Shown here in pieces: positions 16,583-35,701 of a stretch of DNA of 64,000 nt. Source of the stretch: a virus. Both the position numbers and the translations under genes were made by a program. The first letter of the stretch is position 1; every line of letters starts with the position of its first letter. The DNA is taken from the IMG/VR virus record IMGVR_UViG_3300025030_000038, positions 248,001 through 312,000 of that record. One strand, given 5' to 3'. Below the pieces are notes generated by a model. The model had not been told where the DNA came from and searched no databases. It worked only from the letters and a program-made list of their open reading frames with translations.

Positions 16583-16583
16583 G

Positions 16584-17522: not shown

Positions 17523-17526
17523 TCGA

Positions 17527-18771: not shown

Positions 18772-18796
18772 GGTATTGGGTTGTCCTTTGGATTGG

Positions 18797-19462: not shown

Positions 19463-19494
19463 GCACTACTATACAGTGCACATTGAACATCCTT

Positions 19495-20211
19495 CTAGTT
19501 AAAACCCCCGGAGGTTGCCACCAGGAGTATGCAGAGGGGGCTTACTAGACGAAGGACACTTCTGTTTCCCTTCTTGGAATTACAGGATACACAGACCACG
19601 GTAACGTTCTCAAATGTATTAGAGCCACCTTTCGAAATTGGGAAGATGTGATCTAGGGAACGCTTGTTTCCAACTGGTTCCCCACAGTAGGTACACAGTC
19701 CTCCTGATTCTCTGTAGGCCAGTTTAGCCTCTCCCTTTGTGAGGGTGTTCTCAACAGCTTCAAGTCGTGCCCGGCGTTTCTGACTGGCGACCACGGATGC
19801 TTCCGGATGAGCTTCCATGTGGGTATCATGACTGGACTTGACCTTCTCTGGATTCGTTTCCCGATACTTCTTACTGTAGGCCCTAAATTCCTCTAGATGC
19901 TCTTTGCGATATGCTTCCTTGTGGTCTGAATTAGCTCTATCCCAGGCCAGCCTGGAAGTCTTTCTCTTTTCTGGGTTTCGTTGTACCCAGGCTGCATGGT
20001 TGGCATTAACACGATCCTGGTTTTCTTTCGCCCATCTAGCCGAGTTAAGACTGATCTTCTCTTTGTTGGCCACATAATACATGTGGTAGCATTCCTTGCA
20101 TTGTGCCTGATGCCCTGGCTTGGAGCCTCTTTTGTCGGGGCTGAAACAGTCTATTGGCTTCAGGACACCACACTTGGTGCATGTTTTTTCAGTAATAACA
20201 GGAGGGGTCAA
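19495..20211 (-). CDS. HNH homing-type endonuclease
   Basis: A 238-residue protein with an N-terminal zinc knuckle (CTKCGVLKP...CKECYHMYY), a long Lys/Glu/Arg-rich helical middle that probably wraps DNA, and a C-terminal HNH core CTYCGEPVG...RSLDHIFPISKGGSNTFE...CVSCNSKKGNR. This is the classical McrA/HNH order with catalytic DH and Asn. It sits as a free-standing gene between ssb and ruvC, with a strong hairpin just upstream, consistent with a mobile intergenic homing gene. The target site is unknown. Confidence 0.85.
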   Translation of the reverse strand: MTPPVITEKTCTKCGVLKPIDCFSPDKRGSKPGHQAQCKECYHMYYVANKEKISLNSARWAKENQDRVNANHAAWVQRNPEKRKTSRLAWDRANSDHKEAYRKEHLEEFRAYSKKYRETNPEKVKSSHDTHMEAHPEASVVASQKRRARLEAVENTLTKGEAKLAYRESGGLCTYCGEPVGNKRSLDHIFPISKGGSNTFENVTVVCVSCNSKKGNRSVLRLVSPLCILLVATSGGFN

Positions 20212-20236
20212 AGCAGATCCTGGAAATCAGGTGGCT

Positions 20237-20265
20237 CTGGGCACCATCAGATTGATGGTGCCCAG
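20237..20265. terminator. 12-bp perfect hairpin between ssb and HNH gene
   Basis: CTGGGCACCATC-agatt-GATGGTGCCCAG is a perfect 12-bp stem with a 5-nt loop, lying just past the 3' end of the ssb gene (minus strand) and before the HNH gene. There is no U-run after the stem on either strand, so termination is uncertain. It could instead protect the ssb transcript's 3' end or limit read-through into the homing gene. Confidence 0.55.
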
Positions 20266-20284
20266 GTGGGGCACCTAACAGCTA

Positions 20285-21010
20285 CTACTTGAGGATGTCT
20301 TCGAGCATGTTGTCAAAGTCCGGGCTGCTGGCTGGGGCCGCTCCGGATCCTGCGGTGGGGCGGGCACCCACGGGGCCACCGGCAAGTTTTGCACGGATCT
20401 GCTCAATGGTCAGGTCTTGAGCCAGCTCTCCTGGGAGACCCTCTGCCACGGCCTTGGCCTGAGCAATAATTGCCGCCGCCTTAACGGGATCCTTTTCCAG
20501 GATCTTGCGGAGAAGGCTCTCCCGACATGGGCTGATTGTGATCTTCTGGTACTGTGTGTCTGTACACGCAATATTCAGGTCGTAGCTACCCAGGGGCCAC
20601 TCACTATTGGTGGTCTTGAGGTTCTGATACTTATCCCCGGAGATAATCCATGACATTGCCTTGAAGTCACCGCTGGCGAACTTGGCCTTGTCGATGGCCC
20701 CGGAAGAATCTGTTGGCCACTTGATAATTACGGTACCAATCTGCATCTTTGAGGGGGATCCCGCAATCTTGACATACTCTGGACCGCGGTCCATGAAGTA
20801 CCCTACCCCTGCTAGGTAGAGACGCTTCCCACCAAGAAACCTGGGGGAGGGAGAGTCCAGAACTGGCTTCCCATCTTCCAACCCTGGCCACCAAGCGAAG
20901 GAAACGCGGAACTTGTCACCTTCCTTGAGCTTGAGACGATTACCCTTGGACCCAACGCCGTCATCGTTGAGGTCAAAACCCATTTCCTGAAGACTACCTG
21001 CTGTTGTCAT
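20285..21010 (-). CDS. probable single-stranded DNA-binding protein
   Basis: A 241-residue protein with a beta-rich N-terminal ~150 residues (KFRVSFAWWPGLEDGKP..., aromatic residues suited to stacking on bases). A low-complexity Gly/Ala/Pro linker leads to an acidic tail ending DFDNMLEDILK, the hallmark of phage and bacterial SSBs that recruit partners through the C-terminus. It heads the recombination operon together with the coiled-coil protein next door. A GGAGAGATAAC ribosome-binding site precedes the ATG. I have seen similar proteins next to recombination genes in large phages, but the OB-fold is inferred rather than motif-proven. Confidence 0.6.
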   Translation of the reverse strand: MTTAGSLQEMGFDLNDDGVGSKGNRLKLKEGDKFRVSFAWWPGLEDGKPVLDSPSPRFLGGKRLYLAGVGYFMDRGPEYVKIAGSPSKMQIGTVIIKWPTDSSGAIDKAKFASGDFKAMSWIISGDKYQNLKTTNSEWPLGSYDLNIACTDTQYQKITISPCRESLLRKILEKDPVKAAAIIAQAKAVAEGLPGELAQDLTIEQIRAKLAGGPVGARPTAGSGAAPASSPDFDNMLEDILK

Positions 21011-21104
21011 GCTGTTATCTCTCCGTTGTTGTGGTCACGAGCTAGTCGGTCAATTGATTGTTGTGAGTGACATGCCCGCTTATTGTAGCTTACACTCTTC
21101 TTGG

Positions 21105-21866
21105 TCAAAGCAGACTGAGAATCTCGTCAATGTCATCATTTTGTGTGGGGACCCCGATTGTGGTCTCTGAACCATCAATCTCTGATAGGAGTTGATCCTC
21201 ATAGGAACTGGCCCCCTGGAGTTCCTGTACGTCCCCCGGGGCTGGGTCTGATTCCGCAAACACTGAGTCCATTAGATCCCCAATGGATGGGTCCAGGGTT
21301 TCAGACACTACCCGAGCCGTCTCTAGGGCCCCTCTCTTTTTTCCTGGTAGTGAGTTGCCCCACCGTCCACCGAGGCCCAATTCTTCCTGGCAGACCTTCA
21401 ACTGGTCCCGAAGTCTGGATTGGATATCCTTGAGATCCGATCTTTTAGTCCTAATGACAATCAGAACCGCCTCCAGGTCCTCCACAGAGAAGGAGAGTTT
21501 GTCTAGTTCTTCTCGTTCCACCTTGAGTTTGGTATTGGCGGTGGCATCTCGATCGGCCACGCTGCGTCCCGCCCGTACTTCCGGGTCATTGGTCATTAGC
21601 TCCCGAAACTTGAGGGTGAATGCAGCCGTAGCATATCGTTGCTGGCGTTTGTACCAATGGAGATCCTGGGAAACATCCAGGAAGACCTTCTCACACCGAG
21701 AGAGGTGCCCCCGGCACTCTGCGATCTTCTCATTGAGGCGCTTGGGACCCAGCTCCAGGGGGTCAGCATCAAGTTCTACAGTCATTCCCCCCAAGGTCAG
21801 GTATACGGCCTCAAGGCGTTCCGTATCTACCTTGGGTCCAGAGTCAGAGGGTCCTGAAGCTTCCAT
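21105..21866 (-). CDS. coiled-coil protein of the recombination cluster
   Basis: A 253-residue protein, mostly helical. Central heptads (LSFSVEDLEAVLIVIRTKRS and flanks) precede a Gly-rich LGLGGRWGNSLPGKKRG segment and an acidic C-terminal tail ending DDIDEILSLL. The pattern DPLELGPKRLNEKIAECRGH near the N-terminus recurs in phage genes next to SSB and helicase genes, but no function is established. The acidic tail resembles that of the neighbouring SSB, so the two may compete for or share a partner. It overlaps no gene and starts 3 nt from the helicase stop. Confidence 0.6.
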   Translation of the reverse strand: MEASGPSDSGPKVDTERLEAVYLTLGGMTVELDADPLELGPKRLNEKIAECRGHLSRCEKVFLDVSQDLHWYKRQQRYATAAFTLKFRELMTNDPEVRAGRSVADRDATANTKLKVEREELDKLSFSVEDLEAVLIVIRTKRSDLKDIQSRLRDQLKVCQEELGLGGRWGNSLPGKKRGALETARVVSETLDPSIGDLMDSVFAESDPAPGDVQELQGASSYEDQLLSEIDGSETTIGVPTQNDDIDEILSLL

Positions 21867-21869
21867 GTG

Positions 21870-24659
21870 CTACTCTACCTTCGCTCGAAGTCTGTTCCGG
21901 AACAGTGTGTTCCTAACATCTTCTTGATTGTTGAGCACCGCTCGGGACATTGCAGAATGTGACCCAATAAGGATCACCTTCTCTTTGGCTCTGGTGATCG
22001 CTGTGTAGAAGAGATTACGCTGTAGTTGGTGGGCAAAGGAATCAATGATAGGCATCACGACAATGTCCATCTCCTGACCCTGACATCGATGGACTGTAAC
22101 TGCATAGGCCAATCTCAACAGAGTGTAGCACTTCTCAAAAGGAATCTGGACGAGAATCATTGGGGGTCCATGAATCTTGATAGTCACCGTCTTGGATTTC
22201 CGATCAATATTGGATATCTTCCCGGTGTCACCATTGAAGATGCCTAACTGGTAGTTGTTTTTGACCACCATGATCCGGTCATCCTCCCTCAACACATCCT
22301 TCCCCAGCTTGATCTCTTGCAGAGAGGGCTGCTTCGGGTTGAGGAGTTCCCTCAGTCTGGCATTGAGGGCTGTCACCCCTATAGGCCCTGCATGGCGGGG
22401 GGTCATGACCTGGAAATTTTTTCGTGCCTGATAGAGCTTCTCCGCTAGCACAATGATCTTGTTGGCGATTTCCTCTTCATTATGCTCCTCTATGAGGCAG
22501 AAGTTCGATCCTATTGGGGCGTCGGGTACCACCCCACGATGAATTTCATGGGCGGCTTTGATGATGGGAGAGGCTTCATTCTGGCGGAAAATCTCCGTAA
22601 GTGCCACGGTTGGATAGACCCCGGAGGCGACCAAATCCCGAAGCACGTTCCCAGGCCCCACAGAGGGCAGCTGAGCGGCGTCCCCCACAAACACCAGACG
22701 GGCATCCGGTCGGGTACAGGTCAGAATCCGGTAGAGCACATGCTGATCTGCCATACTACAATTGGAAACGATGACATTCCCAGCGACATAGTTATGATGG
22801 TCCTGAATTTCCAGGTCATACACATGGTTGTATGTACGCTTAGGAGAAAACTTTGTAACTCCCGACACTTGGCTAATTGTTGTGTCAGGCTGAACACCCC
22901 TAACAACCACGTCGTCTCCTATGCGCAAGTCTCCAGCATTCTGATACCCCGAAGGAGTCAGTACCTTATGTTCTGGAGTGCATCGAATAGACCTTCCCGA
23001 CCGTGAGCTATGGCTTGCCCCCACGGTTAGTTTCAGTAGGCCAGACTCAGGATAGGGATTTTTTAGGTACCTTAGAATTGGTTTCAGCTCCAGCATCCCG
23101 CTACTCGGATTTCTAGCCCAGACCCGCACGGGTAGCCGTTGCTCAACGACTTTCCCAATGTACTCCCAGCCCGACTCTGTTAGAATGGATTGCTTGTAGT
23201 GAAAACACTCGTCAATCACGATCATCTCGGCGGGATGTGGTTTTCCAGGGCCATACTTCCACTCCTCTCCTGAGCCGTCGGAGGATGCTGAGTCCTCATC
23301 CCGCTGGCCTACCACCCCAGCATAAGTAGCCTTACGGGTCTCACTGTCTGCCCCCATTGCCCCAAATGCCCGATGGATTGTGTACGCCTTAACCCCAGTC
23401 AAGGACTCCACACGCTTGGCTGCGATACCTGTTGGAGCCACCATCCACGGGTGCACCCCCATCTCATGCAGAAGCATGAGCACCATACGGAGTGAAGTTG
23501 TTTTACCCGATCCAGGTAAGCCCGTGATGATCGAAATGGGCTCGGTAATGGCATTGATTACCCCAAGCTTCTGTTTTTCCGATAGGGTGATACCACCTGT
23601 GGCCTCGACCTGTGCCAAGTATTGGGCCCCAGCATCCCGCAAGGATGCCTGACCGTTCTCTTCCCCTATCAGAGACTTGACATACTGGGCTGACTTTTCC
23701 GGGGATATGACCGCCTGTAGCCCTCTCTCCTTGAGAATTGTGGCTGAGGTGTCCTCCAGCTTGTAACTCCAAGGGTCATAGATTGCCATGGTTCCTGGGA
23801 GGGTAGTTTTGTCTACTACCAAAAGACCCTGACCCACCAATGCTTTGACGGAGGCCACAAGGTCCTTGTCGGCAAAATTGGGGTCTAAGGTCCAGGCAGT
23901 AGCCCGTAGCTCCCCCGCTGACATGTAGAGGTTACCGAACCCCTTGGCTGCCCGCGAAGCATGAAGAACAGCCCCTTCGACTCGGGCAGGGTTGGCAGGG
24001 GAGCAGTCCAGACCCAACCGCATACCAACGGCGTCAGCATCACCAAAACTGATACCGTCAATCTGCACCAGTGCCCAAGGATTGACTGACAGGACATCCT
24101 TTGCAGTGTCCCCAAATGTGGACCATATATGCCTGATTTTGCCCTGGGGGAGTCCTAAGTCCCCAAGGAACTCCAACGTGAGGAAATGGGCTCTTGCCAT
24201 CTTCCACTTGTGAACAATGTTCTCGGCTGTAAGTGCCGTGAGTCCTGGCACCGTGCTGATCTGAGCCACATCCGTGAGAGCTTCGGCCATAGTCTTCCCA
24301 AACTGTGTCCGTATCCTCGCTGCAATGCCAATTCCAATACCCTGGGAGGTGAGGATCTTCTCACACATATCCTCATCCCAGACCCCCTTCAGAACGGGGG
24401 CCCGGGTAACTTTGATCTGGCGACCATATTTGGGATGATTTCCCCAGTCCCCTTCAAACCCAAACCATGCCCCAATGTCAACATGGACCCCTGGGATCTC
24501 ACCACAAACCGTCACAAGGGGTTCTATGGAGCCCATCCACTCCTCAATAGGATTAGGATTCGCCTCCACGTCCAGTAGCATCCGGAGAACATAGAATGCC
24601 TTGGTTTCGTTGGCGAAGATGACCGAGTTGACCCGGCCCGAAAAATAGGTATCGGTCAT
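21870..24659 (-). CDS. RecD2-like SF1B helicase containing a mini-intein
   Basis: A 929-residue precursor; removal of the intein leaves about 780 residues. N-terminal helix-hairpin-helix repeats (SQGIGIGIAARI, VPGLTALTAENIV) lead to the helicase core: Walker A ITGLPGSGKTTSLR, Walker B MIVIDE interrupted by the intein then CSMAD, motif III VFVGDAAQLPSVGPG, motif IV EIFRQ, and a C-terminal UvrD-like YAVTVHRCQGQEMD with YTAITRAK. This is the RecD2/TraA-like 5'-3' helicase order. It would unwind ends or act in recombination with RecA and SSB. Its start overlaps the next upstream gene's stop by 4 nt. Activity requires protein splicing, since the intein splits Walker B from its following residues. 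Confidence 0.88.
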   Translation of the reverse strand: MTDTYFSGRVNSVIFANETKAFYVLRMLLDVEANPNPIEEWMGSIEPLVTVCGEIPGVHVDIGAWFGFEGDWGNHPKYGRQIKVTRAPVLKGVWDEDMCEKILTSQGIGIGIAARIRTQFGKTMAEALTDVAQISTVPGLTALTAENIVHKWKMARAHFLTLEFLGDLGLPQGKIRHIWSTFGDTAKDVLSVNPWALVQIDGISFGDADAVGMRLGLDCSPANPARVEGAVLHASRAAKGFGNLYMSAGELRATAWTLDPNFADKDLVASVKALVGQGLLVVDKTTLPGTMAIYDPWSYKLEDTSATILKERGLQAVISPEKSAQYVKSLIGEENGQASLRDAGAQYLAQVEATGGITLSEKQKLGVINAITEPISIITGLPGSGKTTSLRMVLMLLHEMGVHPWMVAPTGIAAKRVESLTGVKAYTIHRAFGAMGADSETRKATYAGVVGQRDEDSASSDGSGEEWKYGPGKPHPAEMIVIDECFHYKQSILTESGWEYIGKVVEQRLPVRVWARNPSSGMLELKPILRYLKNPYPESGLLKLTVGASHSSRSGRSIRCTPEHKVLTPSGYQNAGDLRIGDDVVVRGVQPDTTISQVSGVTKFSPKRTYNHVYDLEIQDHHNYVAGNVIVSNCSMADQHVLYRILTCTRPDARLVFVGDAAQLPSVGPGNVLRDLVASGVYPTVALTEIFRQNEASPIIKAAHEIHRGVVPDAPIGSNFCLIEEHNEEEIANKIIVLAEKLYQARKNFQVMTPRHAGPIGVTALNARLRELLNPKQPSLQEIKLGKDVLREDDRIMVVKNNYQLGIFNGDTGKISNIDRKSKTVTIKIHGPPMILVQIPFEKCYTLLRLAYAVTVHRCQGQEMDIVVMPIIDSFAHQLQRNLFYTAITRAKEKVILIGSHSAMSRAVLNNQEDVRNTLFRNRLRAKVE
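22761..23207 (-). other. mini-intein in the helicase Walker B motif
   Basis: A 149-residue insertion at residues 485-633 of the helicase, between VIDE and CSMAD. Block A begins with Cys (CFHYKQSILTESGWEYIGK), block B is CTPEHKVLTPSG (TxxH), block F is VYDLEIQDHHNYVAGN and block G is VIVSN followed by Cys+1. No homing endonuclease domain is present. The residue before the terminal Asn is Ser instead of the usual His, a variation that some active inteins tolerate. The interrupted motif is the helicase's conserved Walker B. Confidence 0.9.
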
Positions 24660-25144
24660 TTCCTAGCCCTATCTAGCATTGCAATCAGGTCTCCCTGAAT
24701 ATCCTTGAGACTTTGCATGGTTTGCTTGAGGCCTTCAATATCCAGGGAGACGTGCTGCTCGTCCCGTACCTTTGGGGACTTGACACACATGGCCAATTTA
24801 CAATTATGTCCCTCCAATTGATTGAGTGGTGGGAAGCCACCGGAGGTTTCCACCGCCCACCAATTAGGTCCATGGGGGACTAACTTCCCCTCCCCCGCCC
24901 AGGAGCACATTAGCTCCGGGTCCAGATGGTGTCCAGCCGGGCAGGTGCCTACTGGGGTCCAATAACAGCTACCCAATCCCCACCGTGCCTGAATTGGCTC
25001 CCTGGGGAAATGGCAGGCCATGAAAACGACTTCCTGACCAGCAAAGGGGGTTAGGTCTATTGGTTGAGTGGACCCATCTGTTTCGACAGTGGGTCCCTCA
25101 TGAGAACAATGGACTAGGCCTTGTAAGACCAACACCAGTGGCAT
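24656..25144 (-). CDS. hypothetical Cys-containing protein
   Basis: A 162-residue protein with a short hydrophobic N-terminus (MPLVLVLQGLVHC) that could be a weak signal sequence, then several cysteines (MACHF, GSCYW, GTCPAGHH, LMCSW, HNCKLAMC) and a C-terminal helix ending LIAMLDRARK. The Cys pattern suggests disulfides or a metal site. It overlaps the helicase start by 4 nt (ATGA-type coupling). No family is recognised. It is the second small possibly exported Cys-rich protein in this arm, with the one at 14979-15236. Confidence 0.5.
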   Translation of the reverse strand: MPLVLVLQGLVHCSHEGPTVETDGSTQPIDLTPFAGQEVVFMACHFPREPIQARWGLGSCYWTPVGTCPAGHHLDPELMCSWAGEGKLVPHGPNWWAVETSGGFPPLNQLEGHNCKLAMCVKSPKVRDEQHVSLDIEGLKQTMQSLKDIQGDLIAMLDRARK

Positions 25145-25189
25145 ACAATGGGTTACACCACAAGTGCCTCAGAGGAGTGGAGAATCGAC

Positions 25190-28105
25190 CTAAGAACACC
25201 CCATACTACTCCCACAATTGGAACACCGGTAACAGGTCCCATTACGAACCGTCAAATGCCCACATTGGTCACAGAAGGGGGCGTCGGAACTTGTGGCCGC
25301 TGGAGGAATGGAGTTCCTTTTGGTGGGGGCTGGGGAAGGCTCTGACTCCTCCGCCTCCGTTAGTTCGGCTGCCAGCTCACTAGGCTTAATGTGTGCCAGA
25401 TCCTCTCGATCCAGATATCTCACTGCAAGGTGCCGGAAGATGTAATCCAACAATGAAGTGCAGGTCTTGATATGGTCATCAAATTGAACAGGACCGGCTG
25501 GCTCGAAACGGGTGAATGTAAACTGGTTCACATAGGTATCCAAAGGCACTCCATGCTGCAACCCAACAGAGATGGCAATTGCAAAACTGTTCAACATGGC
25601 CCGCAGAGCAGCCCCATCCTTGGAGACGTCAATGAAGATCTCCCCCAGATTACCGTTGGGGTATTCACCGGTATGCAGGTACAGCTTCTGGCCTGCAATC
25701 TTGGCTTCCTGGGTATACCCCTTTCGCTGCCTGGGTAGACGAACTCGGGTGGGGCGATTTTCTACGACAGAAGTAGCCGCTGCTACCGCCGTAGGAAGAG
25801 ATGTGGTTGGTGTTTTCTTCTTGTCTGTAAGTGGCTGGGATGCTTTGCAACCATCTCGATACAGGGCCACTGCCTTCAAACCAAGCTTCCATCCAGCCCT
25901 GTAAATCTCCGATACCTCCTCGACGGTGGAGTTGTTGGGCATGTTGCAGGTCTTGGAAATAGCCCCACTGAGGAATGGCTGGGTAGCAGCCATCATTTCC
26001 AGGTGGGCCATGGGACGAAGGGCTAGAACCCCTTGAGCACAAGCAAAAACCGGATAGTCATCCACATCCAAATGTGGGGCACCCATTACGTTTCCTGTCG
26101 CATCAATATGAGCCACGATGGCATCAACCGCCTCATCCCCATACCCTAGCTCATGTAACGCCAGATGGACCGACTGGTTGACGATCTTCATAGACCCCCC
26201 ACCTGCCAGCTTCTTGTACTTCACGAGGGAGTAGTCGGGCTCAATACCTGTGGTGTCACAATCCATCAGGTAGCCAATTGTTCCTGTCGGGGCCAGGACT
26301 GTCACTTGAGCATTGCGATACCCATAAGTGGCTCCCAGCTTCAACATGTTGTCTGCATCCTCCCTAGCAGCCCTACCCAGGTAGGAAAACTTGAGAGATG
26401 CCCTCGAACTATTGATCGGCTGCACTTTGGTCAGGTCATCAATTGCATGACTATGCTTCTGCACCACCCTGGACATTGGGACCAAGTTGGTTTGGTACTT
26501 CGGGAATGCCCCCTTTAACTTTGCTAGCTCGGCGGACGTCGCATAGGCTTTGCTGTGCATGATGGCCGTGAGTGCCCCGGCGACATACCTCCCATCGTAG
26601 GAATCGTAAGGCAGCCCAAGCATCATAAGCAGTGTTCCTAGATTCGCATATCCCAGACCCAGGGGGCGAAAATCATGCGTGTTGCGGGTTATTTCCTCTG
26701 TCGGGTAGGAAGCTAGATCCACAAGGATCTCTTGGGCAATGATGAAGATTCGGGCGGCCTCCCGGTATAGCTTGACATCGAAGGTGAGGCTACCATCCTC
26801 GCTCCGTTTAAGGAACTTGGTCAGGTTCAAGCTGGCCAAATTGCAACTCGTGTTATCCAAGAAAATGAACTCACTACATGGATTGCTGGCATTGATCCTG
26901 CCCGTTTCTGCACAGGTGTGCCAATCATTGATGGTGGTGTCATACTGGAGGCCTGGATCCGCACACTCCCAAGCTGACTGGCAGATTTTCTGCCAGAGAT
27001 CCTTGGCTTTGATGGTCTTGATTACCTCTCCTGTGGTACGGGCCCGAAGGTTCCAGTCCTCGTCCTTCTCCACTGCCCGCATGAACTCGTCACTGACCCG
27101 CACGCTGTTATTTGAGTTCTGGCCTGAGATGGTTGCATAGGCTTCCCCGTTGAAGTCAGGTTTTCCATCCGCGTCTAGTCCAATCCCGGCAGCTAGGAGC
27201 ACCCGGGCTTTGTTCTCCTCTTTGGACTTCCAAGTGACGAAGTCCTCGATCTCAGGATGGTCCGCCTGCAAAATCACCATCTTGGCCGCCCGACGTGTGG
27301 TCCCCCCAGACTTCATGGAATCCGCGGCTCTATCAAACACACGCAGAAAAGCCATCAACCCCGAAGAGTAGCCCCCACCAGATAGCACCTCATACTTCGA
27401 GCGGATTGCACTGAAGTCCGACCCCACACCACTCCCGTACTTGAAGAGACGCATTTCTGCCTTGAGACTGTCTGCAATCGAATCAATAGAGTCATCCACC
27501 CGATTGATGAAGCACGCAGATGCCTGTGGCCTGACATAGGCCCGGTCCATTTTCTTCACAGACCCACTCTCGAAGTCCCACGCAAAATTCCCCCCCTGGC
27601 CATCAATACCGTAGGAGTGGTACATCCCAACATTGAACCACACTGGAGAGTTGAAGGCCCCATATTGGTGCACGAGCAGGTACTTCAGTTCCCGCTCAAA
27701 AACCTGCTTCTGCTCCAAAGTGAAGTAGCCTTGGTTGAAGCCCTCTTGCGCTATCGTAGAGGCTACTCGATGAATCACCTGCTTGACCGACTTCTCTGGT
27801 CCAAGAGTTCCGTCAGCTTGTGGGACTCCGGCCTTACGGAAGTATTTTGAGGCCACAATGTCTGTGGCTAATTGAGACCACCCTGAGGGGATCTCCACAT
27901 CATCCATCTGAAAGACGACCGCCCCACTCTTCTCTGAGATCAAACAACGTCGCTTCTCATACTTCACATCATCTAGGGGGTCCCCAATTCCAAGATGGAA
28001 CACGGGGGACATTGAGAGCACATTTGTGACAGGCTGTGGGGTGTGTGCCCCGGTCTCGGATACATCTTGATGGGAAATTTTTGGAAACGAAGAACCGTCG
28101 AGCAT
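25190..28105 (-). CDS. nrdJ: class II (B12-dependent) ribonucleotide reductase
   Basis: A 971-residue adenosylcobalamin-dependent ribonucleotide reductase. The barrel carries the substrate/thiyl region ASNPCSEFIFLDNTSCNLAS, an N-terminal GAFNSPVWFNVG, KYGSGVGSDFSAIRSKYE and the C-terminal radical-site region TVLAPTGTIGYLMDCDTTGI. A C-terminal zinc-ribbon, CDQCGHLTV...CYRCSNCGSSMGC, provides redox cysteines. It reduces ribonucleotides to deoxyribonucleotides without oxygen and without a separate radical subunit, so the host must make or import cobalamin. A strong AGGAG lies 7 nt before the ATG. It teams with ThyA and the deaminase for dNTP supply. Confidence 0.92.
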   Translation of the reverse strand: MLDGSSFPKISHQDVSETGAHTPQPVTNVLSMSPVFHLGIGDPLDDVKYEKRRCLISEKSGAVVFQMDDVEIPSGWSQLATDIVASKYFRKAGVPQADGTLGPEKSVKQVIHRVASTIAQEGFNQGYFTLEQKQVFERELKYLLVHQYGAFNSPVWFNVGMYHSYGIDGQGGNFAWDFESGSVKKMDRAYVRPQASACFINRVDDSIDSIADSLKAEMRLFKYGSGVGSDFSAIRSKYEVLSGGGYSSGLMAFLRVFDRAADSMKSGGTTRRAAKMVILQADHPEIEDFVTWKSKEENKARVLLAAGIGLDADGKPDFNGEAYATISGQNSNNSVRVSDEFMRAVEKDEDWNLRARTTGEVIKTIKAKDLWQKICQSAWECADPGLQYDTTINDWHTCAETGRINASNPCSEFIFLDNTSCNLASLNLTKFLKRSEDGSLTFDVKLYREAARIFIIAQEILVDLASYPTEEITRNTHDFRPLGLGYANLGTLLMMLGLPYDSYDGRYVAGALTAIMHSKAYATSAELAKLKGAFPKYQTNLVPMSRVVQKHSHAIDDLTKVQPINSSRASLKFSYLGRAAREDADNMLKLGATYGYRNAQVTVLAPTGTIGYLMDCDTTGIEPDYSLVKYKKLAGGGSMKIVNQSVHLALHELGYGDEAVDAIVAHIDATGNVMGAPHLDVDDYPVFACAQGVLALRPMAHLEMMAATQPFLSGAISKTCNMPNNSTVEEVSEIYRAGWKLGLKAVALYRDGCKASQPLTDKKKTPTTSLPTAVAAATSVVENRPTRVRLPRQRKGYTQEAKIAGQKLYLHTGEYPNGNLGEIFIDVSKDGAALRAMLNSFAIAISVGLQHGVPLDTYVNQFTFTRFEPAGPVQFDDHIKTCTSLLDYIFRHLAVRYLDREDLAHIKPSELAAELTEAEESEPSPAPTKRNSIPPAATSSDAPFCDQCGHLTVRNGTCYRCSNCGSSMGCS

Positions 28106-28178
28106 GGAAGTCTCCTGCTGGGTGAATGAAGGCTAGGAATGAGAGTGTGTCTAGTCGGGTCTATTGACCATCAAACGA

Positions 28179-29150
28179 CTATGACGATACGCGAATTGCC
28201 CTTAGAATGCCTGTTTCCAGAATCCCCCATGGTTTCAAGGCACCCTCGAAGACAGCCACTTGAGACCGGGCTATGACATGCAACAATTGCTTGCAACCTG
28301 TGACCCCCCAGGCTCTCGCTTGAGGTAGGATATTGTGTTCCCAATACCAAGGGTTTGCACCCACCCGGCTTGCTGCGGCCCCTGCTGGGAGGCCCTTCTC
28401 GTGCATGTGCGCTGCCTGGAGCCATTTGATGATGTTCGGTGACAGCACCTTACCACACACTTCTATGGTTGGGTCCCCTCGTTTCGACTGATAGTATCGC
28501 TGCAACTCACTCGCAACCAGGGCAATTCTTCGGGTTCCCAAGGCAGCCACCAGGGCCGACCCATCCAACTCCATAAGGGGGGCCATGGCTTCTTTCACAT
28601 GTATGGGCTCAATCACGTTGATCCCAAGAACCTTTGCCAGCTGCACAACCTTCCCCACCTCATAGAAGATGACCCCAAGGTCTGAACCAACCTTTTGGAC
28701 CAGTGCCTTGGCGATCTCCGGAGACAGGGTCATCCCATGTTGCTTGGCAACCTCCACGGCATACTCGGCTGCAAAACTCTCCATCTTGTAGAAGGCGGGA
28801 AGCGTGAAAATACGGGTCTGTGCCTTGGGAACCTGGGACACAACCTCACCTTTGGGCTGGGCACTCTCTGACACCAACAGAAGAGTCAGGGCGGGGTTGG
28901 GATCCAACATGTGGCTGGATACATCCTCCAGGAGGAGCTTGTCAGCATTGGCAATTACAGCCAATGTGTTGCCAGAGAAAAGAACCCCTGTGGTCGCAAT
29001 CAGGTTGGTGATGGAGTCATGGTCCTCCGCATCAACAGGGAAGATGGAATACCCCTTTGCTTGGAACTTGGTGATGGTGGCTTGCGTGAACATCCGACGA
29101 CGGTGCTCATCCGTACCCGCAACTAGTAGAAGAGAGGGTTGGGACATCAC
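28179..29150 (-). CDS. holA: clamp-loader delta subunit (HolA-like)
   Basis: A 323-residue protein resembling DNA polymerase III delta. The N-terminal fold lacks a P-loop, a GVLFSGNTLAVIANADKLL segment stands where delta has its FSSKRLVVV motif, and the central KVGSDLGVIFYEVGKVVQLA helix matches the delta lid region. The C-terminal helical collar is also present. Delta opens the sliding clamp. The overlapping methyltransferase and the delta'-like gene follow upstream in the same operon. Assignment rests on fold pattern and gene context (clamp, DnaX and delta' all in this genome). Confidence 0.7.
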   Translation of the reverse strand: MMSQPSLLLVAGTDEHRRRMFTQATITKFQAKGYSIFPVDAEDHDSITNLIATTGVLFSGNTLAVIANADKLLLEDVSSHMLDPNPALTLLLVSESAQPKGEVVSQVPKAQTRIFTLPAFYKMESFAAEYAVEVAKQHGMTLSPEIAKALVQKVGSDLGVIFYEVGKVVQLAKVLGINVIEPIHVKEAMAPLMELDGSALVAALGTRRIALVASELQRYYQSKRGDPTIEVCGKVLSPNIIKWLQAAHMHEKGLPAGAAASRVGANPWYWEHNILPQARAWGVTGCKQLLHVIARSQVAVFEGALKPWGILETGILRAIRVSS

Positions 29151-30382
29151 ATCCCCAACATTTCCAATAGCGATGGACCTTCGTGATCAGAGGTAGCCTC
29201 AAGATCAGCCCTTTCGGGTTCCCTCTCCCCATATAGCCGGATCTTAGCGAGATCTATGTAGTCAGGGTTGAGCTCGATAAGGATGCAGTCTCGTCCCAGG
29301 GACCTAGCCACTTCAGCAGTTGTCCCGGATCCCCCAAACGGGTCCAGCACTGTACATGGGACTGGTTCCTGTGGGGAACAGGTACAGGTTGGCTCCCAAC
29401 CAGTGGTGGTCGATTGGATGGAGTGTCTGTTACCAGCCCGTCCATCTTGGCCATGAGCATCTGCCAGGGAATCCCCTTTTCGTGCCTGCACTCTTCCGGG
29501 ACGGTCTGGGATCTTCTCTCGATCCACCTGCCGCTCCCAAGGAGCACCACAGGATGGGCAGCAACCCCTCTCACTGGTCCCTGCCTTGATACATGGCACT
29601 ACCAATGCGGGGGGCATTGTGGCAAAGTGGGCACCCTTGTAGGGCCGGGTATTGATTGACCAAACATCCCTGAGGTTGCGACCCCCAGGGTGCCCATCAA
29701 CCCCCACTTCATCTCGGGTCCTGTAACCCGCTTCTGTATGGGCTTGATGCCCCCCAAAAGATGGCCTCCCCTCAATGGGGGTGAGCCTCCGTTGGGGCTT
29801 CATTGTACAGGGCTCCCGCACGGCATCCATGTCGTAGAAGTATTGGGCTGACTTGGCTAGCAGGAACACATACTCGTGGGATTTGGTTGGACGGTCTGTG
29901 ACCGATTCTGGTAAAACGTTGGGTTTTTGCCACACAATATCACTACGAAGCCACCAGCCATCTGCCCGGAGGGCAAAAGCCACCATCCATGGGATGCCCA
30001 CTAGGTCCTTGGGTTTGATTCCAGCAATCGATGGTTTTCGTGCCCGCACAGCCCATGAGGGCACGTCACCTGTACCCGAAACAACAGTATGTTTCCCACT
30101 GTTACCACTTTTTCCCCCACCCCACTTATCAGTACTACAAAATGAGTCACCCAAATTAATCCAGCATGTACCATCTTCACGGAGCACCCGCCGTACTTCA
30201 CGGAACACCTGGACCATGTTGGCCACATACTTTTCGGGGGTGGACTCCAGCCCTAGCTGACTCTCATGATTGTAATTTCGTAACCCCCAATAGGGTGGGC
30301 TGGTCACACAGCAATGGACTGACCCATCGGGTAGACCCTTGAGAACATCGAGGGAGTTACCTTGGAGGATCTGTATGGTCAC
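29147..30382 (-). CDS. DNA methyltransferase (SPPY/DPFGGSGTT type)
   Basis: A 411-residue beta-class N4-cytosine/N6-adenine DNA methyltransferase. Catalytic motif IV VTSPPYWGLRN is near the N-terminus. The AdoMet-binding motif I DPFGGSGTTAEVARSLG is near the C-terminus, before ELNPDYIDLAKIRL. A variable middle with a zinc-ribbon-like CCPSCGAPW...CTCS would recognise the target. No cognate restriction gene is adjacent, so it probably protects phage DNA from host enzymes or marks packaging DNA. The coding region overlaps both neighbours by 4 nt (ATGA), placing it inside the clamp-loader operon. Confidence 0.9.
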   Translation of the reverse strand: MTIQILQGNSLDVLKGLPDGSVHCCVTSPPYWGLRNYNHESQLGLESTPEKYVANMVQVFREVRRVLREDGTCWINLGDSFCSTDKWGGGKSGNSGKHTVVSGTGDVPSWAVRARKPSIAGIKPKDLVGIPWMVAFALRADGWWLRSDIVWQKPNVLPESVTDRPTKSHEYVFLLAKSAQYFYDMDAVREPCTMKPQRRLTPIEGRPSFGGHQAHTEAGYRTRDEVGVDGHPGGRNLRDVWSINTRPYKGAHFATMPPALVVPCIKAGTSERGCCPSCGAPWERQVDREKIPDRPGRVQARKGDSLADAHGQDGRAGNRHSIQSTTTGWEPTCTCSPQEPVPCTVLDPFGGSGTTAEVARSLGRDCILIELNPDYIDLAKIRLYGEREPERADLEATSDHEGPSLLEMLGM

Positions 30383-30996
30383 TTAGCCTCCAGGAAGGCT
30401 GATAGGATTCGTGCCTGTGTCAGGGTACCCCCACTGAACAGGGGCCTCAGATGACCCCACAGGGCGAGATAGGGAGTGGGGTCTGTGGATGACTCCAACT
30501 TCGGTTGCAACACATCTACAAGGGCACGGAGGAGCATGTCCTGTTCCTTGATGTCTTTAACCTCCTCGATCAGGCTTACCCAATCCCCCTCCAGGTAGGC
30601 CTTGAGGACCATTCTGGCAATTGGGATCATACCCTCCCATCGGATGTCCACTCCTGGAGCGAAATGGGTGAGACACCTTGATGTCAAGGTGGAGGAGACT
30701 CCTCCAAGGTCCCATGCCCATAACACAGGGTAAACCAGCTTGAGTTCTTCAATGGCCTTGAGGAGGACATCCGTTGAAGCAGCTGCTGCCTCATCTACAG
30801 GACCTACCACAACGGAATGAGACCCATCTCCAACAGGGGTTTGTGATAGCAGGTCCACTAGCTCCCGACAGCCTTCCTTTTTGAGTGCCCCACCATCGAA
30901 AGGGAGCACCTTCCCAAAGGTCTTGGCTATCAAGTAAGCTTGTTCTTGGGACCCAGGGCCATGAAAAAGCTGACAGGAAACAGAGGATGCAATCAC
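30379..30996 (-). CDS. degenerate clamp-loader delta'-like subunit
   Basis: A 205-residue protein whose start (SCQLFHGPGSQEQAYLIAKT) mirrors the delta'/gamma P-loop but lacks the GK[ST], so it should not bind ATP in the usual way. An AASTDVLLKAIEELKLVYPV segment follows, like the region after the DnaX lid, then a helical C-terminus. In bacteria delta' is likewise inactive as an ATPase and acts as the clamp-loader stator. Encoded next to delta and overlapping the methyltransferase. The family link is moderate, based on N-terminal resemblance and position. Confidence 0.55.
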   Translation of the reverse strand: MIASSVSCQLFHGPGSQEQAYLIAKTFGKVLPFDGGALKKEGCRELVDLLSQTPVGDGSHSVVVGPVDEAAAASTDVLLKAIEELKLVYPVLWAWDLGGVSSTLTSRCLTHFAPGVDIRWEGMIPIARMVLKAYLEGDWVSLIEEVKDIKEQDMLLRALVDVLQPKLESSTDPTPYLALWGHLRPLFSGGTLTQARILSAFLEAK

Positions 30997-31039
30997 AGGT
31001 GGTCTTACACCGTACCAGAGGACCCAGGAGGGAGGGAAG

Positions 31040-31366
31040 TTACCAATCTACTCGATCTACCCAAGAGGATACCAATAAGGCTCTCCTCAAATATGCTTCA
31101 GTCAGACTCTTGGCTTGCAGACTCCCCCAACCGAAGGGGGGGTTCAGGTTTATCAGATCCCTTATGGTAGGGATCACCACTTCTTCCCAGAAGGGTCCAT
31201 CCCATCCCGGTGTCATATTGGTGGGCTGTACTAGTACCACCTGTGAGGGATGAGACTTCTTGGTTCCTGGGAAGACCATATATGAACTTCCCTTCAGGAG
31301 TCCCCAACAGTCAGTGACCAGTCTCTTGAAGTTGATCCTCGACTGACCTTGGTAGGAGCTAGCCAT
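31040..31366 (-). CDS. hypothetical protein
   Basis: A 108-residue protein of unknown function with several aromatic residues (GWDGPFWEEVVIP, PPFGWGSL) and a C-terminal ...WVDRVDW. It lies between the clamp-loader operon and the terminator at 31385. It is therefore the first protein gene after the structured non-coding transcript and must have its own promoter or be read through the hairpin. No motif recognised. Confidence 0.5.
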   Translation of the reverse strand: MASSYQGQSRINFKRLVTDCWGLLKGSSYMVFPGTKKSHPSQVVLVQPTNMTPGWDGPFWEEVVIPTIRDLINLNPPFGWGSLQAKSLTEAYLRRALLVSSWVDRVDW

Positions 31367-31384
31367 TTAGTAGGTTCCTCAAAG

Positions 31385-31420
31385 AATTGGGGTCTTGGAA
31401 AATTCTCCAAGACCCCAATT
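31385..31420 (-). terminator. strong hairpin terminator ending the non-coding transcript
   Basis: On the minus strand AATTGGGGTCTTGGA-gaattt-TCCAAGACCCCAATT forms a perfect 15-bp stem with a 6-nt loop, followed by CTTT. It lies at the end of the 0.8-kb protein-free region and before the next gene, so it should end that transcript. The U-run is short, so some read-through into 31366-31040 is possible. Confidence 0.75.
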
Positions 31421-31834
31421 GGCTGTACTTGAGATGAGAACTGAAACTAGACAACTGGTAGGCTACTGCATCCATGTGTATTGAGGTCTCAATAGGAGTT
31501 TCAGTTGCCGTAGGCGGCAATGGACAAGAGATCCCCCTTACGTCTAAGGTCTTCACCTTGACGTTTTCTTCTGTCTTGTTCTCACTAACTACTCTATTTC
31601 GTTAGTGATTTACTTCAGTAGACGGATCTACTAGGGGTGAGTTTGTCCCTCATTCCCTTGGGTGGTGACCCTCCCTAAAAGGGTCGTTCTGAGGTATCAG
31701 ATGTATTTCTACCACTATTGAACCCAGGACTTAATACTACGGATCCAGAAGGATCCTTACAGTAGACATTACCTACATCTACTCCATAGACATACATCTC
31801 TGGAGTCTCAACGATGTGGAATGGGTCCTCAGAT

Positions 31835-31862
31835 GTTTCAATCCACTCTCCCATGGGGAGAG
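31835..31862 (-). repeat. CRISPR-repeat-like hairpin unit A
   Basis: Minus strand: CTCTCCC-cat-GGGAGAG followed by TGGATTGAAAC. The 12 bases GTGGATTGAAAC match the 3' end of type I-C CRISPR repeats, and the hairpin sits exactly where such repeats have theirs. The second copy lies 105 bp away with a different stem sequence but the same tail, so the structure and tail are conserved rather than the raw sequence. Confidence 0.65.
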
Positions 31863-31939
31863 TCACTGACTTACTGGTTGATCCTACCGGGTAGGATCGC
31901 CGGGCTGTGTTTCTTGTTCCCTTTGACAGTGACAGACTT

Positions 31940-31966
31940 GTTTCAATCCACTCTCCCCTTGGAGAG
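31940..31966 (-). repeat. CRISPR-repeat-like hairpin unit B
   Basis: Minus strand: CTCTCC-aagg-GGAGAG then TGGATTGAAAC, the partner of unit A. The 77 nt between the units is about twice a normal spacer and itself folds (GTCACTG...CAGTGAC enclosing GATCCTAC-ccg-GTAGGATC). No third copy and no cas operon is near, so this is not an ordinary array. Confidence 0.65.
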
Positions 31967-32236
31967 ATCAGACTGTACCAACTCTGCTCTGATGTGGCGG
32001 CTTGTTGGAGTTTGGCTCCTGTTCCACTCGTATTACTACGATGACCCCACTGGGAGACTATGGGTTGAAACCATAGGTTTCCATGCACCAGATCCCCTGT
32101 GGAAACTTCGGGGATACCGAAGAGGCTCACAAGACTGGTAGGGAAGTCACTCAGACACAAATTGCACCTAGGAACCCATACCAACGGAACTGGGTAGCCT
32201 GACCTGAAATTCGACCTGAGCCAGTCGATTCCCTTC

Positions 32237-32614
32237 CTACATGAGTCGGTAGATGTAGGCATGCCATATGTTGATGGTCATGAAGGTCACACCTATGGCA
32301 AGTAGTATATGGCGACGTACTTTAGCTGGCTCTTTACAGGTGGATCGATGGAGGATTCGGAGACCAAGCCAGAAAATCCAAAACTTGGCAACCCCATAGA
32401 GGGCCGGGGAAGCGGTCCAAAGCCGACTCATGAACAGATTGATCTCAAGGACATGGGGGCTTTTGGTTAAAGCCTGTGCGGTTAGGATCCCATCCACAAC
32501 ATTCAACCATTGGCAGCAATCTTCCAGGAAATCCATATCACCCTGATATGGTTGGGGTTGTGTACCAGAAGTTGGCGTACTTGTAGGTGTAATTGGCTCC
32601 CCGAGGTTGCCCAT
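32237..32614 (-). CDS. small integral membrane protein (DUF5658-like)
   Basis: A 125-residue protein: a Pro/Thr-rich N-terminus (GEPITPTSTPTSGTQPQPYQ), then hydrophobic segments around WLNVVDGILTAQAL, ASPALYGVAKFWIFWLGLRI and HILLAIGVTFMTINIWHAYI. The layout, with a helix ending DGILTAQAL followed by EINLFMSRL, resembles DUF5658-type membrane proteins found in phages and bacteria. Two or three membrane helices are likely. Function unknown; it stands just upstream of the structured RNA region. Confidence 0.6.
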   Translation of the reverse strand: MGNLGEPITPTSTPTSGTQPQPYQGDMDFLEDCCQWLNVVDGILTAQALTKSPHVLEINLFMSRLWTASPALYGVAKFWIFWLGLRILHRSTCKEPAKVRRHILLAIGVTFMTINIWHAYIYRLM

Positions 32615-32712
32615 ATCTCTACTTGAGCGATAGGGAAAAGCTCGTCTTTCTGGAATTTATGCTATCGGCCCACAGAACACCTTCAGAGAAGGCCCTGTAG
32701 AGGCAGGCAGAT

Positions 32713-33522
32713 TCATCCCTCTAGTAGGTCAAGGACAGTTCCCTCTTCTTCGACAGGAAGGGCATCTATGACTCGCTGGTTAGCCCTCTGGGCATCTGCC
32801 TCAATGGCTTCCGACCCCAGGAACCTCCGACCCAACTTCACGGCTGCAATGCCTGTAGAACCGAAGCCAGAGAAGGGATCTACGATCATGTCCCCCTTGT
32901 TGGAGTGGGTGGCAACAAGCCTCTCCATGAGCTTGGAGGGTTTTTGGCATGACCTCTGTGGACGGAACAGCTCAGTGATGTCTTCTATCACCGTTTCATA
33001 CTCAAGATCCTCGATGTCGAGGAAGACGTTCCCTACACGCTTGAACTCGCTGTGTGCTGGGTACTTGGCGTCAAATCCAGCATAGCCCCTCTTGGTGTCC
33101 AGGTACGGTTTGTGAAATGTGACTTGGGTACGTTCGGCGGACTTGGAGAGCCAAAGAATTTCTTCCCTAAGAAAGAGATAATCATGGCTCTTGCCGAATG
33201 CTCTTCGTTTCCGCCAAGTTATCCAATTTCTGTACGTGAACCCACCGTCTTCCAGTGCTGTGATGATCCTGAACAGGGGGTGGGACTTGTGCTTACCTAA
33301 CCCCCCAAAGAACACAAGGGATCCTGTGGTGGAGAGCTTGGGCAAGCCTGCTAGAAGGATGTCGGACAGCCATCTGGCAAACTGCTTCTCATCCGTCCAC
33401 TGGTTGTCCCAAGCATCCCCAACAATTCCATAGAAGGGAGGGTCTGTGAGGAGCAGGTCGACTGAGTTGTTGGGGAGGGACTGGATGAAGTCTAGGGCGT
33501 CCATGCACCTGATGTAGGTCAT
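32713..33522 (-). CDS. DNA methyltransferase (DPPF type)
   Basis: A 269-residue beta-class DNA methyltransferase. Catalytic motif LLLTDPPFYG is near residue 28, and the AdoMet motif DPFSGFGSTGIAAVKLGR is near the C-terminus, followed by SEAIEADAQRANQR. It is short and compact, with a basic middle (WRKRRAFGKSHDYLFLREE). Together with the enzyme at 29147-30382 it gives this phage two intact methyltransferases and one broken one, suggesting heavy DNA modification against restriction. No restriction gene is adjacent. Confidence 0.88.
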   Translation of the reverse strand: MTYIRCMDALDFIQSLPNNSVDLLLTDPPFYGIVGDAWDNQWTDEKQFARWLSDILLAGLPKLSTTGSLVFFGGLGKHKSHPLFRIITALEDGGFTYRNWITWRKRRAFGKSHDYLFLREEILWLSKSAERTQVTFHKPYLDTKRGYAGFDAKYPAHSEFKRVGNVFLDIEDLEYETVIEDITELFRPQRSCQKPSKLMERLVATHSNKGDMIVDPFSGFGSTGIAAVKLGRRFLGSEAIEADAQRANQRVIDALPVEEEGTVLDLLEG

Positions 33523-33549: not shown

Positions 33550-33924
33550 TCAGACCTTCTGGAGCTCTTTCACAGCCAGTTCGAGCGTGTGAATCATCTT
33601 AACCAGTGACCCATCTACATCCCCAACATCTTCTGGCTTACCATCCTTGACCAGGGCCACGCTGTAGAATGGGCTACTAGAGGATTGCATCCCTGGGAGC
33701 TTGAATGCCTCCAAGGCACGGTAGAAGTCACGTCCCACACTCAGCTTCTTCTGTGCTGCCTGGAGGGCATTAAGATAGCTCTCTGCTAGGGCCCCAAGCT
33801 CAATGGCCTTGGCCACATCCACCCCCTTAGTGGGTGCCGCCTCCTTGAGCAGGGGGAGCAACTGGGGCCGGAGAGCCGGGTTCTCTTGGGCTAGATGGAT
33901 GAGTTTGGACCGCAGAGTTGTCAT
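33550..33924 (-). CDS. hypothetical protein with ENPALRP-type N-terminus
   Basis: A 124-residue protein. The N-terminal helix LIHLAQENPALRPQLLPLLK is repeated in the next gene (RVIRLAHENPALRPHLLPLL), a motif that recurs across proteins of large tailed phages and may be a sorting or assembly signal. The rest is helical with a short polar centre (GMQSSSSPFYS). The ATG at 33924 follows the next gene's stop at 33935 without overlap. Its immediate neighbour shares the motif, which suggests joint use in the virion. Confidence 0.6.
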   Translation of the reverse strand: MTTLRSKLIHLAQENPALRPQLLPLLKEAAPTKGVDVAKAIELGALAESYLNALQAAQKKLSVGRDFYRALEAFKLPGMQSSSSPFYSVALVKDGKPEDVGDVDGSLVKMIHTLELAVKELQKV

Positions 33925-33934
33925 TGGTATCTCA

Positions 33935-35701
33935 TCAGTCCATTGCACAGTACTGGTGATATTTGATTCCAAGACCTCGCATGGCTCCCACGACTTCTTG
34001 GAAGGTCATGGACTTGATCTGGCTCTGGTTGTCTTGGACCCAGCGATAGAAGACTGGGATGTCCTTCTTGCCACCTTTGATGGCTGGTATGCAGGTGGAC
34101 AGGTTGTTCTGGTCGTGGGTGTCTTCTACCGAGAAGTCATCATGCTCTGCTCGGATTGAGACAAACTGCCCTTGAATTCTAAGTGCCTTGACTCCTGCTG
34201 GTGCCACATCGACACCACGAAGGGCAGAAACCTCTAGCTTGGGGGCCAGGGCATCTTGTTCGTTCGCTACAGTCTTGGCCATTTGCAGGAGGGTGCTGAA
34301 TGTGGCATGGCCACCAACGGTCGCTTCCACTAGGTTCTGGAAGATGCTGGCAGTTTCCTGATTGACCTTGGCTCGGTCCAGGTCATAGAGGGCGAATTGG
34401 GAAACCCTTTTGCCACGCTTACCTGCATCGGTCAGGTCCGTGACCCGAAGAGTATTGGCAAACATCTGTGCGCGAACCTTGGTGTTTTCAAGTGTCTCCC
34501 CAATAGACATTGGGCTACGGGGTAGCTCCACCAAGTTTGGGTTGCTTCCAGGAGTGCCCCTCCAGGTTCCTGGGAAGGGGATTACATCCCCCGCTTGCTT
34601 GAGGAGAGGGAGGAGGTGGGGTCGAAGGGCTGGGTTCTCATGGGCAAGACGGATGACCCTACCTCGCAGGGACTTCTCAGCAGCAGCTTTCTTGAGTCGA
34701 GCCATGCGGCCATGAATTTTGCCACGGTACAAGTCAGAAAGGAAGGATGCGTCCGACATCATATTGACAACCTCCGGGAACCGATCATCACCTTGGGTGG
34801 TTAGGATTTTGGATATCTCCCCAATGAACTTCTTGCGCCCATTGGAAAGGTGGGTCTGATTCACTCCTACACGGGCAGCAATCACCGAGTCCATTCCCCA
34901 GCCAAGGTCTTCCCCTCTAGCTAGAGACTCAAAGTATTCCACCACTACAGGGCTAGACATCCGCTTGGCTTGTTCAACCAACCAAGAGAGAAACTCTTGG
35001 GCCGCCGGGTGTGCCGGGTTACCCATGACCTGAGAGATGATCTGCTCCCACTCGGGGGCGTTGATGTCATCGGCATCCCCAAGGGTTTCTTTACCTATTT
35101 CCTCAATGTTTTCCATCTCCATTACGCGACGGCGCATGAGGGTGCGGCCAATGTCCATTGCTTCACGACGAGCGGCCATGCCAATTTTGTTGAGGATCTC
35201 AGCAAGGGCAACTTCACCCGATAGAACCATCTTCTTCTTGGCCCGAAGGAGCTTGCCTACTTCATAGAAGATGCTACCAATGTGACTGGTCTCAGCAAGA
35301 GCTTCACCTACCTCATTCTGGAGAGTGAGATCCGCAGTTTTGCTTCCATTTTTGGCAAGACCAATTCCCTTGACCATGTCTGCCAGGAGAACATCCTCCG
35401 CTTCGAGACCCATCTTGGCTACAGCCTTGGAGGCGGCGACCCAGGCGGTCCGATACAGCCCCAGGCTCTCCATGGAAACCCATGGGCTGGTGGTAGCATC
35501 CGTCTCTGGATCAATTCGTAGCATCATCTTCCCAATTACTTGTCGCAACTGGGCATTACTGTGAGCTTTTCCGGAGATCGAGAAGGGAGGAGCCCCCAGC
35601 AGACCTTCCATGAATTGGGCGCGGGCCATCACGTCAAGGTGTTGGAGGTTGATCCCGGTTGGGAGAGATGCTACGACTTGGCGGGCGGTGTGTTGAGTCA
35701 T
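33935..35701 (-). CDS. sigma-like protein with ENPALRP motif
   Basis: A 588-residue protein. An N-terminal ~330-residue part looks like a divergent sigma factor: GLEAEDVLLADMVKGIG resembles region 2, and a C-terminal helical segment (FESLARGEDLGWGMDSVIAA, then RVGVNQTHLSNGRKKFIGEI) resembles the region 4 helix-turn-helix. The ENPALRPHLLPLL helix follows (about residue 360), and then a ~200-residue domain of unknown fold ending YHQYCAMD. It is the last minus-strand gene before the divergent control region. It may be a virion-carried transcription factor; the sigma resemblance is by pattern, not a confirmed family hit. Confidence 0.5.
   Translation of the reverse strand: MTQHTARQVVASLPTGINLQHLDVMARAQFMEGLLGAPPFSISGKAHSNAQLRQVIGKMMLRIDPETDATTSPWVSMESLGLYRTAWVAASKAVAKMGLEAEDVLLADMVKGIGLAKNGSKTADLTLQNEVGEALAETSHIGSIFYEVGKLLRAKKKMVLSGEVALAEILNKIGMAARREAMDIGRTLMRRRVMEMENIEEIGKETLGDADDINAPEWEQIISQVMGNPAHPAAQEFLSWLVEQAKRMSSPVVVEYFESLARGEDLGWGMDSVIAARVGVNQTHLSNGRKKFIGEISKILTTQGDDRFPEVVNMMSDASFLSDLYRGKIHGRMARLKKAAAEKSLRGRVIRLAHENPALRPHLLPLLKQAGDVIPFPGTWRGTPGSNPNLVELPRSPMSIGETLENTKVRAQMFANTLRVTDLTDAGKRGKRVSQFALYDLDRAKVNQETASIFQNLVEATVGGHATFSTLLQMAKTVANEQDALAPKLEVSALRGVDVAPAGVKALRIQGQFVSIRAEHDDFSVEDTHDQNNLSTCIPAIKGGKKDIPVFYRWVQDNQSQIKSMTFQEVVGAMRGLGIKYHQYCAMD

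Follow-up and report, generated by a model that had tools for sequence, protein, structure and literature searches.

Scattered intergenic type I-C repeat mimics in a huge phage genome: candidate decoys for host Cascade

Results

The window analysed here is a 64,000-nt stretch of viral DNA that corresponds to positions 248001-312000 of the 485-kb record of an uncultured huge phage (G000 in our genome comparison). Its largest intergenic gap in a codon-based gene call is an 870-nt block on the minus strand (31367-32236), which is empty of called genes and has same-strand genes on either side, two DNA methyltransferases among them. Two minus-strand units lie within this block. Unit A (31835-31862, read from 31862 to 31835) is a CTCTCCC-CAT-GGGAGAG hairpin with a stem of 7 bp, or 8 bp if a flanking A-T pair is counted, followed by the 11-nt tail TGGATTGAAAC at 31835-31845. 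Unit B (31940-31966, read from 31966 to 31940) is a CTCTCC-AAGG-GGAGAG hairpin with a perfect 6-bp stem, followed by the same tail at 31940-31950. The start-to-start distance is 105 bp, and the 77 nt in between (31863-31939, minus strand), which would be a "pseudo-spacer" if both units were cut, include a 9-bp palindromic hairpin, GATCCTACC-C-GGTAGGATC, at 31880-31898. The original prediction, which described two minus-strand hairpins with a TGGATTGAAAC tail, 105 bp apart and with unlike stems, was thus exact. A perfect 15-bp hairpin, AATTGGGGTCTTGGA, was also found at 31385-31420, close to the 3′ end of the 870-nt block, with no clear T run.

The region had also been called non-coding. A 195-aa ORF (31675-32262) covers the pair, and both units share one frame of it, such that the pair could be read as a 35-residue protein repeat (GEWIETS). 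However, the codon score of this ORF is non-coding-like (0.006, as against at least 0.09 in true genes), it has no family match, and the other copies of the hairpin are intergenic. We rejected the ORF as a repeat protein, a reading that we find scarcely credible, and the non-coding assignment is supported.

Folding of the minus strand of the 870-nt block was better than that of dinucleotide shuffles in several 120-nt windows, with z close to -3.5 at the pair and to -4 farther downstream. The hairpins of units A and B both form in a 221-nt fold. A shorter fold pairs units A and B with one another instead of making two hairpins, which leaves the predicted structure of the pair uncertain for a long transcript. 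A search of 30900-33000 for a sigma-70-like promoter gave none, neither the window nor the 870-nt block had a meaningful Rfam match, and a DNA similarity search of the region against phage records returned the phage's own record alone (GenBank LR745208.1, 100%).

Elsewhere in the window, intein-like insertions (Intein_splicing / PT-HINT) occur in a RecD2-like helicase gene (21870-24659) and in a DNA polymerase III clamp-loader gene (44501-46387), an OrfB_IS605/Cas12f1-like (TnpB-type) gene (54051-55352) immediately precedes the large terminase gene, and a single ORF (61476-63002) fuses a HAD domain of the Swiss Army Knife RNA-repair class with a eukaryote-type DNA topoisomerase I core. Terminase relatives have the block from about 15200 to 31000 in the opposite orientation and beside the 38-40 kb genes, pointing to an inversion of this block in the G000 phage. 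The adjacent ORFs 33550-33972 and 33935-35701 have in common a stretch of about 30 residues that has no Pfam match and is found at several positions in relatives; it may be a repeated or mobile domain.

Over both strands of the 485-kb genome, the exact tail TGGATTGAAAC occurs five times, against about 0.18 expected; a TGGCTTGAAAC variant occurs twice, and the reversed tail pattern not at all. Five of the seven TGG[AC]TTGAAAC sites are directly preceded by a perfect hairpin of 5 bp or longer, compared with 0.9% of positions (binomial probability about 1e-9). We conclude that chance is excluded for the set of tails and hairpins over the whole genome. Immediately 5′ of four of the five exact tails is a perfect stem of 5 bp or more, and all four of these units are intergenic and oriented in the direction of the neighbouring genes. 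Two of them are the window pair (genome coordinates 279835 and 279940). The unit at 107061 has the stem CTTCC/GGAAG, with the ATG of a gene immediately 3′ of the tail, and the unit at 233445 has the stem CTCCC/GGGAG, with an ATG 4 nt past the unit. A D12 methylase lies one gene from the unit at 107061; a methyltransferase gene is therefore near this tail too. The remaining sites are doubtful. One is a perfect 6-bp hairpin, CTTCCC-AACT-GGGAAG, followed by TGGCTTGAAAC (window 46209-46235, plus strand; genome 294225), within the 3′ part of the clamp-loader gene 44501-46387; the other copy of the TGGCTTGAAAC variant (genome 233179) is also within a gene; and the tail at genome 113043 (L110) is antisense within a gene for a 1323-aa DUF6094 methyltransferase-like protein.

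Allowing two mismatches to AGTGGATTGAAAC added only 10 weak sites, none of which (0/10) has an adjoining perfect hairpin of 4-6 bp. Half-decayed copies are therefore absent from the genome, and tails are either exact or missing. The non-coding share was about 6-18% of the sequence in the three regions examined. The pair as originally predicted is real, but a pair is not all there is: the units make up a scattered multi-copy family that is often found inside mRNA leaders, for which one decoy RNA gene is not an adequate description.

All 11 letters of the tail are identical to the repeat end of a type I-C locus on an IMG/VR contig classed as viral (G021; L149 / L348), in which cas3, cas5d, csd1 (cas8c) and cas7 adjoin an array with the repeat GTCACTCCCCGTGCGGGGGTGTGGATTGAAAC and spacers of about 35 nt. 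This array mixes two kinds of repeat, with interleaved variant units GGTCTTCC...GGAAGTGGATTGAAAC that follow a promoter-like stretch, TTAATATAATATTAGTA, which is itself repeated. Arrays whose repeat reads GTCTCTCCC...GGGAGAGTGGATTGAAAC also occur in bacteria, for example in two Chloroflexota assemblies, and unit A is equal to these Chloroflexota-type repeats at 29 of 33 positions; the type I-C repeat of Anaerolineales CHL17 (GTCTCTCCCTTCATTGGGAGAGTGGATTGAAAC), for instance, has the same tail and stem letters as unit A. In contrast to the bacterial type I-C repeats, the window units have a shorter loop, lack the 5′ GTC, and belong to neither an array nor a cas operon. For the one array tested (L286), the fetched flank held no cas gene, and its subtype was consequently assigned from the repeat. 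The original prediction had proposed a comparison with host-type repeats; the bacterial arrays, whose repeats are near-identical to the units, weaken, but do not settle, the objection that hosts may lack such repeats.

According to reviews, Cas5d leaves an 11-nt 5′ handle in type I-C systems (PMC5965380), and the minimal hairpin is a 3-bp stem with a tetraloop (PMC7064716). The conserved tail is exactly 11 nt long, equal to the Cas5d handle, and in each unit a hairpin of at least 3 bp is directly followed by this handle-length tail, as in the sequence of a Cas5d site. Family searches for Cas5d, Cas7 and Cas6 gave no match in G000 (the whole 485-kb record), G001, G020, G022 or G024, whereas G021 matched the Cas5d and Cas7 families in the same searches. 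This agrees with the earlier statement that no cas gene is present, and a phage-encoded Cas5d, Cas7 or Cas6 was set aside as the processing enzyme. The earlier statement that the spacing is wrong for an array was equally sound, the 77 nt between the units comparing with type I-C spacers of about 33-37 nt. With this gap, the unequal stem lengths and loops, and Cas5d and Cas7 missing from the record, we rejected a type I-C array or mini-array as the identity of the pair. Judged from sequence, the units are very probably type I-C repeat mimics by subtype.

Hairpin and tail units were sought in IMG/VR with two pattern scans, and further phage contigs were found to hold several units with unlike stems. 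G001 (147 kb) has four units, with stems CTCATGGC/GCCATGAG, CTCAGAAG/CTTCTGAG, CTCTCC/GGAGAG and an imperfect CTCCCC/GGTGAG; G020 and G022 share one set of two units, with stems CTCACCAC/GTGGTGAG and CTCCC/GGGAG. Among 11 distinct units, 94.5% of stem cells are paired, three of the five stem pairs vary on both sides, and the covariation score of 0.596 was reached by none of 500 shuffles, nor by slid structures. The scans fixed the tail and the preceding A-G, so in the other genomes part of the constancy seen in the tail and in base pairs one and two reflects ascertainment; stem pairs three to five are free of this bias, except for purines fixed there in the first scan. The alignment indicates that the stems vary and covary while the hairpin and tail stay constant. 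The covarying stems, the tail shared with the cas3-cas5d-csd1-cas7 locus and the 11-nt handle are all in line with the type I-C-like repeats of the original prediction. Two hairpin units with a TGGATTGAAAC tail also occur in a Bacillota MAG, WH4.bin36 (L230, L347), with stems CTCCCGGAG and CTTTCGGAG, on separate contigs. A repeated GTCT...AGTGGATTGAAAC element of a Lachnospiraceae MAG, recovered by a pattern scan, has no hairpin beside the tail and was set aside.

G001, G002 and G024 are related, with about 80-87% nucleotide identity over most aligned stretches around the sites, and G024 has no unit at three orthologous intergenic sites compared with G001 and G002. The leader of an HNH-endonuclease gene has no unit in G024, where the sequence is CTTCTACAAAGGTGCAACC; at this leader, G002 has a unit with CTACAA on each side, and G001 has a unit with a different stem and CAAAGG at its ends. 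At a site behind a rIIB-like gene, the two units of G001 are both missing from G024, and no additional copy of the tail occurs in G002. Since entire units are present or absent at orthologous sites, the units come or go as whole blocks, and the short 6-nt direct repeats that bound two orthologous insertions suggest insertion or deletion at small duplications. Loss of the tail with retention of the stem, put forward earlier as an outcome that would speak against mimicry, was not seen in the G001 clade.

The relatives of G000 by terminase sequence (52-77% identical) have zero tails, which we count against a decoy function. Among TerL relatives, TGG[AC]TTGAAAC is absent except for one copy in a distant record (24% identity). 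The 870-nt block did not align to the terminase relatives examined, and the one examined relative that has the neighbouring clamp-loader-like gene shows no comparable non-coding block upstream of that gene. An orthologue of the two genes flanking the unit at 107061 was not found in the terminase relatives, in a search that had no positive control, and the methylase relatives are too distant to yield orthologous loci.

Discussion

The known elements that these units most resemble are RNA anti-CRISPRs (Racrs) and viral solitary repeat units (PMC10651486), which likewise consist of a repeat-like hairpin and handle in a virus without cas genes. RacrIF1 is a mimic of the I-F repeat, the product of which holds Cas6f and Cas7f in useless complexes, and RacrIC1, from a Bifidobacterium prophage, inhibits type I-C from a bicistronic transcript with acrIC5 (PMC10651486); with its type I-C target and a transcript in common with a protein gene, RacrIC1 is a precedent for the phage units. 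Three of the features that define a Racr are present in the window pair: it mimics a repeat (a hairpin plus an 11-nt type I-C tail, 29/33 positions in common with bacterial repeats), it is outside an array and unlinked to cas genes (105-bp spacing; no Cas5d, Cas7 or Cas6), and it is intergenic (the 870-nt non-coding block). Racrs are expressed, often from just downstream of a promoter; with no sigma-70-like site seen near the window pair, its cotranscription would be possible. On sequence grounds, the pair resembles a Racr and may be one, and we class it as a candidate. Unlike Racrs, the phage units are multi-copy, have divergent stems, are often right before start codons or in leaders, include a close pair, and turn over quickly. 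SRUFinder, as described, takes intergenic sequence only, masks ORFs, and treats full matches within 100 bp as arrays, so the window pair would probably be missed by it, as a close pair that fails a strict solitary filter. The units also resemble the Cas-less CRISPR arrays described in huge phages, which rely on the Cas proteins of the host (PMC7162821), in being host-like repeats of a huge phage with no interference genes. Those arrays, however, have spacers, whereas here single units precede genes, or two units are 77 nt apart.

We propose that the pair belongs to a scattered family of intergenic type I-C repeat mimics (solitary repeat units) that are most likely decoys depleting host Cascade, a proposal that we hold with slightly more belief than doubt; for an anti-CRISPR decoy function as such, the analysis leaves belief and doubt about balanced. 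The units are probably transcribed within phage mRNAs or a non-coding RNA. The phage would supply the substrate and apparently not the enzyme, with host Cas5d binding the hairpins and cutting at their base. By analogy with Racr, cutting of the window pair would yield a 105-nt RNA with a proper 5′ handle (5′ UGGAUUGAAAC), a 77-nt pseudo-spacer and a 3′ hairpin, and this product would occupy Cas5d, Cas7 and Cas8 in crRNA-like complexes without a matching target, leaving less functional Cascade. Should Cas5d recognise the shape of the hairpin and the tail more than the stem sequence, stems could drift with pairing kept; unlike stems may also suit different hosts, and host turnover would account for the quick gain and loss of units. 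From transcription onward, this mechanism is what we infer. The position of the pair between two DNA methyltransferase genes is counted in favour of a decoy function, and stem differences within one phage are unexpected if a decoy must copy a single host repeat. The lack of a predicted promoter and the pairing of the two units with each other in the shorter fold also count against it. The original Racr-like reading is largely supported, in that the units look like type I repeat mimics.

Alternatively, the units could be mRNA-processing sites, where phage transcripts would be cut, in leaders or between genes, by Cas5d borrowed from the host. Cuts would then define 5′ ends, expose ribosome-binding sites or make parts of the message more stable, with Cas5d titration as a side effect. 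Units between same-strand genes, one immediately before an ATG and another 4 nt before, agree with this, as do the G001 units in short gene leaders and the closeness of several units, within a few nt, to start codons. A variable stem with constant shape and tail is also expected of a processing site; the unlike stems of one phage are as compatible with mRNA-processing sites as with an enzyme that recognises shape and tail. We nevertheless consider mRNA processing unlikely: close relatives keep the genes but have no units at the same leaders, so processing at those leaders is not essential; Cas6 and Cas5d were not found in the phage; and the window pair does not lie close to a start codon. A distributed system, in which huge phages would put type I-C hairpins with interchangeable stems into mRNA leaders and host Cas5d would mature the messages and be consumed, is in our judgement also unlikely.

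The block-wise gain and loss, and the 6-nt direct repeats (CTACAA; CAAAGG) that bound two orthologous insertions, would be consistent with leftovers or passengers, that is, functionless inserts that look like repeats and stem from off-target CRISPR adaptation or are some other small mobile hairpin. Against this, decayed copies are absent, with tails exact or missing, stems differ with pairing kept, which is not expected of neutral remnants, and placement is intergenic and sense; such an origin is quite unlikely. It is more improbable still that a unit and the sequence behind it form a minimal array, through which the phage would supply a guide of its own choice to host type I-C complexes. Although the units are repeat-like, and G021 has such variant units inside a genuine array, whose spacers are about 35 nt long, the 77-nt stretch is about twice the length of a type I-C spacer, and gene leaders or start codons follow most other units. 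A search of the 77-nt stretch for protospacers, suggested in the original prediction, was extended to the sequence behind the pair and gave no significant match to foreign phage or plasmid records. The guide-RNA alternative is weak because of this result and because the pair has no spacer-length gap. Finally, a hairpin-type promoter or other DNA or RNA signal, with only an accidental likeness to the type I-C repeat, is highly improbable. Two G001 sites come after terminator-like hairpins, at a possible promoter position, but at a third site the unit is merely inserted in the leader, the tail equals the end of a type I-C locus's repeat in 11/11 letters, and units are present inside the array of that locus.

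If the distributed system were true, an immune nuclease would serve as a phage RNA-processing enzyme, and units would turn over as hosts change. If the units are decoys, as we favour, RNA anti-CRISPRs would also be spread through ordinary phage messages and not just encoded by single small-RNA genes, and surveys that mask ORFs or drop close pairs would miss such units. The unlike stems in one phage are a natural test of Cas5d recognition, and the presence or absence of units between close relatives offers ready-made controls for a study of the arms race.
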